From the NCBI RefSeq assembly GCF_019192965.1, contig NZ_JAHTKU010000026.1, positions 1-64,000 of the forward strand: 64,000 nucleotides of DNA, given 5' to 3'. Within the stretch, counting starts at the first letter, position 1. The number at the start of each line of letters is the position of its first letter. The DNA comes from Nocardioides daeguensis. GTDB lineage: Bacteria; Actinomycetota; Actinomycetes; Propionibacteriales; Nocardioidaceae. Both the position numbers and the translations under genes were made by a program. Below, one piece after another: positions 47,809 through 53,622 of the stretch. A model generated the notes under the pieces. The model saw nothing but the letters and a program-made list of their open reading frames with translations, ran no database searches and was not told the DNA's origin.

Positions 47809-49023
47809 ATGGCAGGGCGTGGCAACGACACCGGGGGCACCGGCGGCGAGGACTTCGACTGGGTCTACGGCCCCGGGGCGCAGGAGGGCCGACGGGGCTC
47901 CGCCGACCCCGAGCCCACCCGCCGGATCCCGGTCCAGCAGCGGCCCGGCGCCACCCCACCGCCGCCTCCGCCCCGACTGCCTCCCGCACAGCAGTACGGC
48001 GGCACGCCGCCGCCGTCCGGACGCCGTCCGGCTCCGTCCCCAGCTCCTGCCCCGGCTCCCCGGACGCGGGGCCGCAGCCGGTGGACGCGGCCGCGCACCT
48101 ACCTGCGGCTGGTGCTCCTGGTCCTCGTGCTGTGGCTGGTCTTCCTGGTCGCGGTGCCGCTGATCGCGTGGAACAAGGTCGAGAAGGTCGACTTCGAGCC
48201 GAGCGCCGAGCGGCCGGCCGAGCAACCCGGGACGACGTACCTCCTCGTCGGCAGCGACTCGCGCGCCGGTCTGTCGCCCGAGGAGCGCCGGAAGCTCCAC
48301 ACGGGCGATGCCGCGTCCGAGCTGACCGACACCATCCTGCTGCTGCACACCGGCGACGGCCCGACCACGTTGGTGTCCATCCCGCGCGACTCGCCGCTCG
48401 ACATCCCCGGGTTCGGCACCAGCAAGGTCAACTCGGCGTACGCCAAGGGCGGCACCCCCCTGCTCGTCCAGACCCTGGAGAAGGCGACCGGGCTGCGCGT
48501 CGACCAGTACGTCGAGATCGGCTTCGGCGGCCTCGTCGGCGTGGTCGACGCGGTCGGCGGGATCGAGATCTGCCCGAGGCAACGCATCCGCGACAAGGAC
48601 TCCGGGCTCAACGTGAAGAAGGGCTGCCAGGAGGTCGACGGCGCGACCGCGCTGGCCTACGCGCGGGCCCGCAAGTACAGCCCGATCTCCGACCTCGCGC
48701 GGGTCCAGCAGCAGCGTGAGGTGATCGCCGCGGTCGGCGAGGAGGTGTTGTCCCCCTGGTCGGTGCTCAACCCGGTCCGTTGGTGGGAGCTGAACGCCGC
48801 GGTCCCCGACTTCTTCCGGTTCGGCACGACGACCGGGCCGGTCGATGCCGGCAGGTGGGCGCTGGCGATGACCAAGGTGGAGAAGTCGTGCACCGTCCCG
48901 CTCGCCCGGGCCGACACCACGTGGGACACCGCGCGCGCGAAGCAGCTGTTCGGCAAGATCGCCGCTGACCGGACCGACGAGATCACCGCCGATCTCTGCA
49001 CGGCCACCGGCCTCGCCCGCTGA
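47809..49023 (+). CDS. LytR-CpsA-Psr (LCP) family phosphotransferase
   Basis: A 404-residue LCP enzyme of the common single-helix form. The first 95 residues are a cytoplasmic Pro/Arg-rich tail, followed by one membrane helix (about 102-123). The outside domain has TYLLVGSDSRAGLS, TDTILLLHT, VSIPRDSPLDIPG and the arginine/aspartate core, then YARARKYSPISDLARVQQQ, shortened as YARARKYSPISDLARVQ. It attaches polymers to peptidoglycan, like the first LCP gene. ATG 47809 follows TAGCGT (47796-47801) by 7 nt. Confidence 0.93.
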   Translation: MAGRGNDTGGTGGEDFDWVYGPGAQEGRRGSADPEPTRRIPVQQRPGATPPPPPPRLPPAQQYGGTPPPSGRRPAPSPAPAPAPRTRGRSRWTRPRTYLRLVLLVLVLWLVFLVAVPLIAWNKVEKVDFEPSAERPAEQPGTTYLLVGSDSRAGLSPEERRKLHTGDAASELTDTILLLHTGDGPTTLVSIPRDSPLDIPGFGTSKVNSAYAKGGTPLLVQTLEKATGLRVDQYVEIGFGGLVGVVDAVGGIEICPRQRIRDKDSGLNVKKGCQEVDGATALAYARARKYSPISDLARVQQQREVIAAVGEEVLSPWSVLNPVRWWELNAAVPDFFRFGTTTGPVDAGRWALAMTKVEKSCTVPLARADTTWDTARAKQLFGKIAADRTDEITADLCTATGLAR

Positions 49024-49042
49024 CCGCACCCCCGGAGGACCC

Positions 49043-49906
49043 GTGTACGAGACCCTGACCTGGCACGTCGACGACGACGGCATCGCCACGTTGACGCTGC
49101 ACCGCCCCGACGCGCTCAACGCGTTCGACCTCACCATGGCCCGCGAGCTGCTCGAGGTGTTCCTCACCGACGCCCGCGACGACGCCGTGCGCGCGGTCGT
49201 CGTGACCGGCTCGGGGCGCGCGTTCTGCGCGGGCATGGACCTCTCCGCCGAGGGCAACGTGTTCGGGCTCGACGAGTCGCTGTCCCCGACGCCCGAGGAG
49301 TTCCGGGCGGCGTACGACGAGCAACCGTTCGCCGACGGCATCCGCGACACCGGCGGCAAGATCACCCTGGCGATCCACGCGCTGCCGAAGCCGGTCATCG
49401 CCGCGATCAACGGCCCGGCGGTGGGCATCGGCGCCACCATGACCTTGGCCATGGACCTGCGCCTGGCCTCGACGAAGGCCCGGATCGGGTTCGTCTTCGG
49501 TCGGCTGGGGATCGTCCCCGAGGCGTGCTCGAGCTGGTTCCTGCCGCGCATCGTCGGCATCCAGCAGGCCCTCGAGTGGGTCTACTCGGCCGACGTCCTC
49601 ACCGCCGAGCAGGCCCTCGCCGGCCGGCTGGTGCGCAGTCTCCACGAGCCCGAGGATCTGCTGCCGGCGGCGTACGAGCTGGCGCGGTCGTTCGTCACGG
49701 ACCGCTCGCCGGTCGCGCTGGGCCTGGCCAAGCAGCTGCTGTACCGCAACAGCGCCGCCGCCGAGCCGCTCGAGGCCCACCTCACCGACTCGCTGGCCAT
49801 GTTCTGGACCTCGATCGGCGACGGCAAGGAGGGCGTCGCGGCGTTCCTCGAGAAGCGGGCGCCGCAGTTCACCGGCAAGGCCAGCGAGCTGCCCCGGATC
49901 GTGTGA
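49043..49906 (+). CDS. enoyl-CoA hydratase/isomerase family protein
   Basis: A 287-residue crotonase-fold enzyme. The oxyanion hole is in AFCAGMDLSAEG and INGPAVGIGATMTLAMDLRLAS, shortened as NGPAVGIGATM. A catalytic-type acidic residue follows in GIVPEACSSWFLPRIVG. The second catalytic glutamate of classical hydratases is less clear, so isomerase or related reactions are possible. GTG 49043 lies 19 bp after the LCP stop, close enough for cotranscription. Fatty-acid breakdown or related metabolism is likely. Confidence 0.9.
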   Translation: MYETLTWHVDDDGIATLTLHRPDALNAFDLTMARELLEVFLTDARDDAVRAVVVTGSGRAFCAGMDLSAEGNVFGLDESLSPTPEEFRAAYDEQPFADGIRDTGGKITLAIHALPKPVIAAINGPAVGIGATMTLAMDLRLASTKARIGFVFGRLGIVPEACSSWFLPRIVGIQQALEWVYSADVLTAEQALAGRLVRSLHEPEDLLPAAYELARSFVTDRSPVALGLAKQLLYRNSAAAEPLEAHLTDSLAMFWTSIGDGKEGVAAFLEKRAPQFTGKASELPRIV

Positions 49907-49928
49907 GCGTGGCCGGTGGGCCGGTGGC

Positions 49929-50072
49929 TCACATCGCCATGAACAGGATCTCCTCGCGGCTGTACTCCCGACCCGGGTGCTCGGCCGCGAGGTGCTCCTG
50001 CACCTTCTCGACGAGCTCGTCGTCGGTGTCGGCACGCAGGGTGGTGGCACAGGGGCAGCGCAACGAGGGCAT
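49929..50072 (-). CDS. small DUF1059-like protein
   Basis: A 47-residue protein too short for most gene finders. It reads MPSLRCPCATTLRADTDDE and so on, with LVEKVQEHLAAEHPGREYSREEILFMAM, shortened as ELVEKVQEHLAAEHPG. The pattern of two cysteines, an acidic TDDELVEKVQEH helix and a histidine matches the DUF1059 group. A strong ribosome site (GGAGG, 5 nt before ATG) supports it. It converges with the enoyl-CoA hydratase gene and diverges from the GH6 gene. Role unknown; it may be a small metal-binding protein. Confidence 0.75.
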   Translation of the reverse strand: MPSLRCPCATTLRADTDDELVEKVQEHLAAEHPGREYSREEILFMAM

Positions 50073-50164
50073 CGAGACCTCCGGGGAGCGGGAACAGGAG
50101 CGAGCTCCAGTCTAGGGCTGCGCCGAGTTCGAGACGAGCAGCCGTCCGGGTTAGCCTCGACGCG

Positions 50165-51451
50165 ATGCTGCTGAGCCCTGGAGTCCCCGTCCGCCGAGCC
50201 CTCGCGTCCCTCGTCGCCGTGCTGGCCACCGCCGCTCTTGCCGGGTGTGCCGACCAGGAGCCGTCGCCCGCGGAGCCCGCGGCGGCACCCACCTCCGCGC
50301 CGCCGACGACGGCCACTCCCGAGGCCGCCCCGCCACCGCTGCCGGTGCAGCAGCCGACCCCGACGCCGCAGGCCCCGAAGCAGCGGCGCTACGTCCGCGA
50401 CAAGGAGGTCTGGCAGCGCGCCCAGCCGGCACACCTGCAGAACCTCGACAACCCGCTCGCCGAGCGGCGCTGGGGCGTCTACCGGGGTGACCTCGAGCAG
50501 ACCTGGCGGGCCTACGAGTCGGCCGGCGGCGAGACGAGGCGGCAGCTCGGCAAGATCGCGCTGCGCCCGAAGTCCCTGTGGCTCGGCGACTGGAGCGGCT
50601 CGCCGGAGCGGATCGGCTCGGTCGTGCGCGAGTACGTCGAGAACGCGTCCGGCGGCGACCCGAAGGTCCTCGTCCAGCTCGCCGTCTTCCGGATGGACCC
50701 GTGGGAGCACGCCGTGTGCGGCGGCCGCGCGCCGTCCCGTGGCGCCCAGGACACCTACCGTCGCTGGATCAGCAACGCCGCCCGCGCCCTCGGCCGCCAG
50801 CACACCGCCGTGATCCTCCAGCCGGACCTGCCGTTCTGGTGGTGCTCGAACCGCGCCGTGACCAGCTCGTTGATCACCTATGCCGTGAAGGCCTTCTCCG
50901 CGCAGCCCCACACCAGCGTCTACCTCGACGCCGGCGCCGCCGACTGGAGCAGCACGCCCCAGACGGGCGCGCCCCGCGCCACCCAGGCCGCCGACCTGCT
51001 GCTCGCGAACGGCATCGCCCACGCGCGCGGCTTCGCCCTCAACGCCACCCACTACGTCGGCACCGAGGAGAGCGTCGCCTACGGCGCCGAGCTCGCCCGG
51101 ATCCTGCGCCAGCGCGGCGTCAAGGGCGTCCACTTCGTCGTCGACACCGCGCAGAACGGCAACGGGATGATGTGGCCGGAGGTCGAGGCACAGGGCAGCC
51201 GGGTCAACGACAACGCCCGGGTCTGCGGCTCCACCGCCGACCGCCGCGGTTGCGTCACCCTCGGCATCCCGCCGACCTCGCGCGTCGGCGACCCGCGTTG
51301 GGGCCTGTCTCCCGCGGTGACGCGGGAGGCGAAGAAGTACGTCGACGGCTTCATGTGGTTCGCCCGACCCTGGCTGTTCATGCAGGCCAACTGGCGGGGC
51401 CCGGACCGGGCCCTCGGCATGGCTCGCAGCACGCGGTGGTCGGCGCCGTAG
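50165..51451 (+). CDS. glycoside hydrolase family 6 lipoprotein
   Basis: A 428-residue exported enzyme. The lipobox LAGC (cysteine about residue 28) anchors it, followed by a Pro/Thr-rich linker of about 50 residues. The GH6 barrel begins GVYRGDLEQTWRAYESA and has ILQPDLPFWW, YLDAGAADWSS and VDTAQNGNGMMW, typical GH6 blocks. The usual catalytic acid motif (PDRDC) is replaced by MDPWEHAVCGG, as in a distinct actinobacterial subgroup, so substrate use may differ from classical cellulases. ATG 50165 follows TAGCCT (50152-50157) by 7 nt. Confidence 0.88.
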   Translation: MLLSPGVPVRRALASLVAVLATAALAGCADQEPSPAEPAAAPTSAPPTTATPEAAPPPLPVQQPTPTPQAPKQRRYVRDKEVWQRAQPAHLQNLDNPLAERRWGVYRGDLEQTWRAYESAGGETRRQLGKIALRPKSLWLGDWSGSPERIGSVVREYVENASGGDPKVLVQLAVFRMDPWEHAVCGGRAPSRGAQDTYRRWISNAARALGRQHTAVILQPDLPFWWCSNRAVTSSLITYAVKAFSAQPHTSVYLDAGAADWSSTPQTGAPRATQAADLLLANGIAHARGFALNATHYVGTEESVAYGAELARILRQRGVKGVHFVVDTAQNGNGMMWPEVEAQGSRVNDNARVCGSTADRRGCVTLGIPPTSRVGDPRWGLSPAVTREAKKYVDGFMWFARPWLFMQANWRGPDRALGMARSTRWSAP

Positions 51452-51480
51452 CTCCCGCTCGCCCGGGGCGCGGTCGCGGC

Positions 51481-51571
51481 GGCCCGGGAAAAGCAGCGCC
51501 GGGCGGCCCCCGCGGGGGCGGGCGGCGGGGGGGGGGGGGGGGGAGGCGGCCGCGGGGCGGCGGGGGGGGGC
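51481..51571. other. low-complexity poly-G / GC block, possible assembly error
   Basis: A run of 17 Gs (51527-51543) and another of 9 Gs (51562-51570) lie in a stretch made almost only of G and C. It falls in the tail region of the LPxTG gene and 30 bp after the GH6 stop. Such runs are rare even in GC-rich genomes and often mark false base calls or a bad join. Confidence 0.8.
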
Positions 51572-52105
51572 GCGGCCGACACCACCGGCGCCGACGGCGA
51601 CGAGACCGCCGCCGAGGAGCAGCCAGGCCATGTCGGGGCCACCGGTGTTGGGCAGCGCGCCGCCCGGCTCGCCACCGTCGGCCGCCCCGATCCGGAAGCG
51701 GGTGGAGTCGGACGACGGCAAGAACAGCGCCGTGTTGTCCGGCGAGAAGTCCTGCCGGGCGAGGTAGGCGCCCTTCGGCAGGCGCGGGCCGGTGACCCGG
51801 ATCGGCCGGTCGGTGAAGTGCACCGTCGTGGTGAACACCGGCTTGGACACGAGGGCACGCGCGCCGCGGGCGGCGGTGCCGCTCGAGGAGACCGTGACCG
51901 CGATGTCGCCGGCCGGCGGCGTCGGGTAGTCGGCGCTCGCGCTGACCTCCAGCACGATCGGCTTGCCCGGTTCGGCGGTGATGACCTGGATGTGGCTCAC
52001 GGTCGGGATCTTGGCCGTGTAGCCGTCTTCGGCACCCGCGGGCGCCGACGGCGCGAGCGCGAATGCGGCAGCGAGCATGCCGAGCGCAGCTAGCTTCTTG
52101 AGCAC
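51572..52105 (-). CDS. sortase substrate, LPNTG surface protein (3' end uncertain)
   Basis: An exported protein starting MLKKLAALGMLAAAFALAPSAPAGA (signal peptide; shortened as MLKKLAALGMLAAAFALAPS), about 178 residues up to the poly-G block. The outside part is a small beta-rich domain. Near residues 151-156 comes LPNTGG, followed by the hydrophobic segment MAWLLLGGGLVAVGAGGV, a sortase anchoring signal. A short basic tail and stop should follow, but the sequence runs without a stop through the G tracts into the GH6 antisense region, so the true end is unclear. GTG 52105 has a perfect AAGGAGG upstream. Sortase gene is next. Confidence 0.75.
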
Positions 52106-52214
52106 GTGTCCTCCTTGAACTTCCCCATGCAACGACCCGGCGCGTTCAAGGTGACGGGCAGTGCGTTGGCAGCAGACTAGTGCACACGTCACCAAACCGG
52201 CTCACCCGTCCGCC

Positions 52215-52994
52215 TCACCCCAGCGCGGAGTCGGTCGGCGTCGTCTCGACCAGGTGCCCGAAGAGCACCGAGCGGTTGTCGGTGTGGAAGATCTCCGAAC
52301 AGGTGAGCAGGGTGATCAGGTGGTCCCCCGCGTCGGCCGGGGGCTGGGTGCCGCCCTTCGGGTTGACCGGCTTCGGGTCGAGCACCCAGGTCTGGGTGAA
52401 CGGGATGACGAGGTCCTCCCCGCCGGTGTCGAGGACGTAGGTGTAGGTCGCGGCTCGGGTCTCGACGACGACCTGGTCGCCCGGCTCCAGCGACGGCAGC
52501 TCGGCGAAGGGCTCGCCGTGGGTCACCCGGTGCCCGGCGAGGACGTAGTTGCCGGCTGCGCCGGCGTCGGCGGTGTCGGCCATGTGGCCCACACCGGCGG
52601 CGAGCACCTCCGGGCTGGAGCCCTCGAGGACCGGGACGGCGTAGTCCTTGCCGAACTTCGAGATGTGCAGGATCGCGGTGGCGTTGCCGAACTCGGTGCG
52701 GACGACGTCCTGGCCCTCACCCCAGCCGGAGTGCAGCGCGCGGCGCACGTCGTCCTGACGCTGCGCGGACTGCCAGTTGGTGCCCCAGAACTGCCAGGCC
52801 ACCCAGCCCAGCACCGCCAGGCCGGCGAGGATCAGGCCGCAGCCGGCCCAGAACGAGATCCGGCGGCGGCTCGACCCGGGCTCCGTCGCCGCCGGGGCGT
52901 CGGCGGGACGCGAACGGCGCCGTCGCACGCGCACGCGCTGGGTCCCGGTCGGCCCTGTCGGCTCGGTGCCGTCGGGCAGGTCGGTCTGCGTCAT
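52215..52994 (-). CDS. sortase, class E-like
   Basis: A 259-residue membrane transpeptidase that attaches LPxTG-type proteins to the wall. An Arg-rich cytoplasmic start is followed by one helix (about 50-70). The catalytic residues are visible: histidine in NYVLAGHRVTHGEP (about residue 154), cysteine in TLLTCSEIFHTDNRS (about 231) and the arginine just after. The TLxTC form and length fit class E sortases of Actinobacteria. It lies between two genes for LPxTG proteins on the same strand, a compact sortase island. AGGAGG precedes ATG 52994. Confidence 0.92.
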   Translation of the reverse strand: MTQTDLPDGTEPTGPTGTQRVRVRRRRSRPADAPAATEPGSSRRRISFWAGCGLILAGLAVLGWVAWQFWGTNWQSAQRQDDVRRALHSGWGEGQDVVRTEFGNATAILHISKFGKDYAVPVLEGSSPEVLAAGVGHMADTADAGAAGNYVLAGHRVTHGEPFAELPSLEPGDQVVVETRAATYTYVLDTGGEDLVIPFTQTWVLDPKPVNPKGGTQPPADAGDHLITLLTCSEIFHTDNRSVLFGHLVETTPTDSALG

Positions 52995-53063
52995 GGGGCT
53001 CCCTCCTCGCGGGGCCCCGCCTCGGATGGCCCCACCTCATCCAACGCGGTGCGCACTCGGGTG

Positions 53064-53582
53064 TCACGTCCGGCGGCGGCCTCGCCCCACGAGCCCACCA
53101 CCGCCCGCCACCAGTCCGATCCCGGCGAGAAGGAGTCCCAGGTGCGGGCCACCGGTGTCGGGAAGCGCCCCACCGACCGCGTCGGCCCGCTCGACGCCGA
53201 GGTTGACCGTCACGGCGTCCCGGCATCCGGAGAACTTCGTCGGGTCGTCCGGGACGAAGCTGACCCGCACCCGGTGCTCACCGCGGCTCAGCCGGGGTCC
53301 GTGGACCTCCGCCGACGTGCCGTCGTAGCGCACCGTCGTGGAGAAGGTGCGGTCGACTCCGACGCTCACCGTCCCGGTCGGCTGCAGGTTCCCGGCAGCA
53401 GTCACCCGGACGCGCACCACGACCCTGTCGCCGACCAGCGCGATCGGCACGGCGACCCGGCACGACGCCGGCAGGGTGGGCGTGTAGGGATCTGCGGACG
53501 CGGGACTCCCCACCCCGATCAGGGCGAACAGGAACGCGAGGGGTGCCGCGACGGCACTCCCCAGGACCAGGTAACGACGCAT
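53064..53582 (-). CDS. sortase substrate, LPDTG surface protein
   Basis: A 172-residue exported protein. The signal peptide runs from MRRYLVLGSAVAAPLAF to about ASA-DPY. A beta-rich domain with one disulfide-like pair of cysteines (SCRVAVPIALVGD, GCRDAVTVNLG) resembles that of the other substrate. The anchoring signal is LPDTGG (about 139-144), a hydrophobic stretch and the basic tail GRGRRRT. This tail shows what the neighbouring LPNTG gene should end with. ATG 53582 is preferred to TTG 53585. A 10-bp palindrome lies upstream. Confidence 0.88.
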   Translation of the reverse strand: MRRYLVLGSAVAAPLAFLFALIGVGSPASADPYTPTLPASCRVAVPIALVGDRVVVRVRVTAAGNLQPTGTVSVGVDRTFSTTVRYDGTSAEVHGPRLSRGEHRVRVSFVPDDPTKFSGCRDAVTVNLGVERADAVGGALPDTGGPHLGLLLAGIGLVAGGGGLVGRGRRRT

Positions 53583-53622
53583 CAAGACGACCCCATCTCC
53601 CGAAAGATGAAAAAGGGAATGC

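Follow-up and report, generated by a model that had tools for sequence, protein, structure and literature searches.

The question raised by this locus is whether a gene for a cell-wall-anchor protein in Nocardioides daeguensis ends in a genetic switch or in a sequencing error. The window (the whole stretch of DNA that was analysed, 64,000 nucleotides or 64 kb, from a draft assembly) holds a minus-strand gene whose readable part (51578..52105) has a GTG start, an LPNTGG motif and a hydrophobic stretch, and then meets long runs of G where a basic tail and a stop codon are expected. The initial annotation left two explanations side by side: that the consensus is wrong here, or that a homopolymer switch varies the anchor. 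We hold with very high confidence that the poly-G block is an artefact of sequencing and assembly at a gene-end hairpin and not a genetic switch. In what follows we describe the gene and its neighbours, the same locus in related bacteria, the distribution of similar blocks across the assembly and the genus, and the way in which such blocks could arise.

The LPNTG gene and its unreadable end

The LPNTGG motif begins at 51655 and is followed by a hydrophobic stretch that ends at a valine at 51578 (LPNTGGPDMAWLLLGGGLVAVGAGGV). The GTG start at 52105 and the signal-peptide-like N-terminus were judged by eye, without a predictor. The truncated piece scores 16.9 bits against PF00746, under the cut-off of 20, and an NCBIfam search with the same piece returned no match. 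Upstream on the same strand is a class E sortase gene (52215..52994; NF033747, 171.2 bits, cut-off 160), and beyond it a sister gene (53064..53585, minus strand) encodes an LPDTG protein (TIGR01167, 20.4 bits, cut-off 15.9; PF00746, 17.1 bits, under the cut-off). Across 51578-53585 the class E sortase gene has an LPXTG-type gene on either side, LPNTG and LPDTG, and in reality the locus is an ordinary one of this kind. The sister protein ends normally: LPDTGG is followed by a hydrophobic stretch, then by GRGRRRT, and then by a stop codon. The earlier suggestion that this intact tail can serve as a guide to the expected end is a sound comparison, though the sister's motif is LPDTG and not LPNTG.

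On the other side lies a convergent gene of glycosyl hydrolase family 6 (GH6; 50165..51451, plus strand; PF01341, 79.7 bits, cut-off 27), which has its stop codon. The spacer between the two convergent genes (51452..51517) has a right end that resembles the left hairpin arm of two relatives, L062 and L063, and its position suggests that the spacer with its hairpin is probably a terminator. Between spacer and readable gene lies the corrupted, G-overcalled block (51518..51577), whose edges are approximate and were set from alignment with three syntenic relatives. On the plus strand it contains a tract of 17 Gs (G17, 51527-51543) and a tract of 9 Gs (G9, 51562-51570). Run counts and the reading frame confirmed the original observation that the LPNTG protein loses its basic tail and stop at a block with 17 and 9 Gs. 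By comparison with relatives, the block would cover approximately the right part of the hairpin together with the last codons and the stop of the LPNTG gene. Where the LPNTG frame runs into the block, the tail and stop that would be expected are missing, and the frame remains open until 48983, antisense to the GH6 gene. A spurious open frame of 1070 residues on the minus strand (48983-52195) is this same frame reading through the corrupted block.

A first-order Markov background built on the remainder of the window predicts, for 64 kb, about 7e-5 G runs of at least 17 and about 1 of at least 9, so that G9 alone is unremarkable; it also predicts runs of 7 to 8 in greater number than were observed. 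Besides G17 and G9, a single C7 is the sole G or C run of at least 7 in the 64 kb. The block as assembled has a folding z of 2.19, and 196 of 200 shuffles fold equally well or better. A terminator scan of the window, which requires a T run, gave no match at the block, and the complementary arm shared by the block's own flanks is only 5. Because the assembled block folds worse than its shuffles, the argument for a hairpin depends on the relatives.

The same locus in relatives

Among the relatives, L062 comes from Nocardioides albidus, L063 and L065 from Pimelobacter simplex, and L064 from Nocardioides carbamazepini. The gene order sister-sortase-LPNTG was found in all six relative loci compared (L020, L021, and L062-L065). 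The convergent GH6 gene is present in three of the six, and two of the remaining three extend just 1.5 kb beyond the match. GH6 identity to L062, L063, and L064/L019 is 82-84%. The C-terminus of the LPNTG protein in L062, L063, and L064 is YGRRR plus five further residues, after which a stop codon follows; the basic tail and stop that are unreadable in the window are thus present in all three, as they are in the sister. With LPNTG as the reference point, the stop codon of the relatives would map to about 51542-51544, at the G17 tract. The spacers to the GH6 stop are 85, 67, and 86 nt in L062, L063, and L064, respectively. Stretches of 66, 91, and 131 nt that hold all or most of the spacer, the latter two extending into the gene end, fold into hairpins with z values of -3.0, -5.8, and -5.1 in the three syntenic relatives.

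One reading of the difference between the window and its relatives is that a real, lineage-specific G-rich replacement has ruined the tail and the hairpin, leaving a decayed gene end. The readable LPNTG protein is fairly diverged (best 71-75% identity to the relatives), so the tail could differ too. However, 204 nt lie between the GH6 stop and LPNTG in the window, compared with 199, 181, and 200 nt in the relatives (values after subtracting 12 nt of GH6), which speaks against any large insertion: the length is alike and the letters are different. The flanks are also in good agreement, as the window carries the base on which the relatives agree at 233 of 250 columns to the left of the block and at 218 of 238 to the right. 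Within the block the three relatives agree at 35 columns, small numbers in a loose alignment, and the window differs at nine of them, eight times to G; outside the block, the share of differences that are to G is 9 of 17 to the left and 5 of 20 to the right. With the same kind of block occurring at 27 further places in the assembly, we consider a genuine replacement at this one gene end very improbable.

Blocks of G and C runs in the assembly and the genus

The draft assembly (4.66 Mb, 41 contigs) contains 59 G or C runs of at least 9, a count that could miss runs lying exactly at a contig edge. When runs of at least 7 were clustered around all 59 places, 28 blocks were obtained: 17 internal, 6 at contig starts and 5 at contig ends, the latter two classes being defined as within 150 nt. 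Two of the internal blocks are single runs and 15 have several. Among these 15, a G run comes first and a C run last in 12, the reverse order is found in none, two begin and end with G, and one begins and ends with C; the window's block, which consists of G runs only, is one of the three that lack the G-to-C order. At contig edges the run that adjoins normal sequence is C at all six contig-start blocks and G at all five contig-end blocks. The mixed order that is often seen within blocks counts against an artefact of read direction: across the genome, overlapping matches counted per strand gave 134 for G8-N(0-30)-C8 and 47 for the reversed order. Both the G-to-C order and the contig-end pattern would follow if the 3' ends of reads decayed into G. 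A biological tract would have no reason to track contig ends or read direction.

Some of the blocks break genes that are conserved in relatives. One gene is split between two contigs, its parts running into blocks at the end of C31 (L076) and at the start of C32 (L077), with 206 and 233 residues readable up to the block. In alignments to 21 relative loci, the two parts match a single locus and one strand every time, and the gap between them is exactly six residues in all 21. This split gene appears to encode a lytic transglycosylase, and its one Pfam hit is PF13406 at 19.1 bits, under the cut-off of 24.3. Additionally, an NAD_binding_2 gene on C14 contains an in-frame block that sits between its GxGxMG motif and ADVVV; the readable part of this gene matches PF03446 from profile position 53 (59.3 bits, cut-off 21). 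At the corresponding site, runs are no longer than 4 in the six of 11 relative loci that match the search pattern, the other five being uninformative.

Another sortase gene (L074; PF04203, 93.6 bits) is adjoined or overlapped by a G24/G12/C19 block (1449-1508 of L074, C26:64148-64207), which has overwritten its upstream or N-terminal region. A C10 beside a palindrome (C13:35151) and a lone G11 (C2:217351) may be real tracts.

These observations bear on the proposal that a real, phase-variable poly-G tract toggles the C-terminal anchor tail through slipped-strand mispairing. In its favour, the consensus does show a long G tract where a surface protein gene ends, and poly-G phase variation is known from other bacteria in the parts of the literature that were consulted. 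Against it, a tract at the same site is missing from the relatives, as no G or C run longer than 6 is found in any of the seven orthologous loci examined (with L019 and L064 probably the same record); the tract occupies the place of the stop codon and the hairpin, with the assembled frame open until 48983; and similar tracts form 27 further blocks, of which 11 lie at contig ends and some within conserved genes. The switch that the initial annotation had put forward accordingly finds no support, and we give it scarcely any credence. If G17 and G9 were real and variable in length, some cells would have an LPNTG protein that lacks its stop-transfer tail or is read through antisense to GH6, a case that would amount to an anchor-switching homopolymer in the genus and that we judge extremely unlikely. 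Both rival readings, the phase-variable tract and the genuine replacement, were rejected on the strength of the genome-wide blocks and the relatives.

Long runs are also found in other assemblies of the genus. Among 98 sampled genomes, this assembly included, 39 have at least one G or C run of at least 12, and nine, again with this one, have at least 16 (counted by eye). Ten single-contig genomes among G001-G036, for which contig numbers are rounded values, have 0-3 runs of at least 12 each and six in total, versus 33 here. The draft genomes vary: many lack such runs altogether, and G008, G014, G019, and G029 have 36, 27, 19, and 34, respectively. G014, the genome of L019, is the closest match at the locus, and from the counts alone kinship could account for its many runs; G033 and G034, which are the next closest and have no run of at least 12, speak against this, as does the clean locus of G014 itself. 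At contig starts (within 200 nt) in G008, G014, and G102, the final run is C in 13 of 13 cases, judged by eye among the matches listed. Eight assemblies (G008, G014, G019, G029, G100, G102, G105, and G115) have 16-69 long G or C runs each, and these are perhaps the same artefact. With nine of 98 genomes rich in such runs, the problem probably extends beyond this assembly.

Probable origin of the false Gs and comparison with known systems

The artefact could arise as follows. Between the convergent LPNTG and GH6 genes there would be a strong hairpin, which is probably a terminator; short reads would lose signal on reaching it, and the dark cycles would be called G; the assembler would then have retained the false Gs in the consensus in place of the real bases. 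The genome-wide read-direction pattern, the conserved genes broken by blocks, and the normal tails and hairpins of the relatives are observations, and together they lend strong support to the first of the two original explanations, that the consensus is wrong. We infer that the chromosome most likely carries an ordinary basic tail, a stop codon and a hairpin at the block, this strain's own tail being read from its relatives. The Gs most likely stem from dark cycles in two-colour chemistry. The hairpin is most likely the trigger at this block, as the folding of the relatives' sequences suggests. For the blocks as a class, complementary arms around the 17 internal blocks average 5.76, versus 4.54 in shuffled pairs (5 of 2000 shuffles were as high), with arms of at least 7 at only four of the 17. 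Hairpins likely trigger some of the blocks, though not necessarily all.

It is thought that two-colour chemistry is unable to separate the absence of signal from G and that poly-G tails result, and false G tails are described as far less prominent in high-quality data, according to passages of one report (PMC6637168). Poly-G read tails are common enough for dedicated trimming tools to have been made, as stated in part of another (PMC12527978). Coverage drops have been described at GGC-type motifs, and secondary structure was not found to be causal in that case (PMC4872057). A limited search yielded no titles or abstract openings on poly-G blocks retained in bacterial assemblies, and no absence is claimed from it.

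The window's block is almost certainly an ordinary data error and not a real feature. Poly-G and poly-C blocks in high-GC drafts can mimic phase-variable tracts, and they can also disrupt genes and give rise to spurious open frames of great length. An easy screen for false poly-G tracts in draft genomes is the test of direction applied above, which looks for G past the left flank and C ahead of the right flank.

The locus can be compared with three known systems. The protein resembles LPXTG sortase substrates in its LPNTG motif, its hydrophobic stretch and the adjoining class E sortase, and it differs from them in that its tail and stop are unreadable in the assembly. With homopolymeric-tract phase variation of the Neisseria and Campylobacter type it has in common a G tract at a surface protein gene, but the tract of the window is missing from the seven orthologous loci and has 27 like blocks in the same assembly. 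The closest likeness is to two-colour poly-G overcalling of the NextSeq/NovaSeq type, in which false Gs appear on loss of signal: G is found past the left flank and C ahead of the right flank in most blocks, including all 11 at contig ends. As described in parts of the reports cited above (PMC12527978, PMC6637168), such overcalling takes the form of trimmable read tails, whereas here the false Gs would have persisted into the assembly itself.
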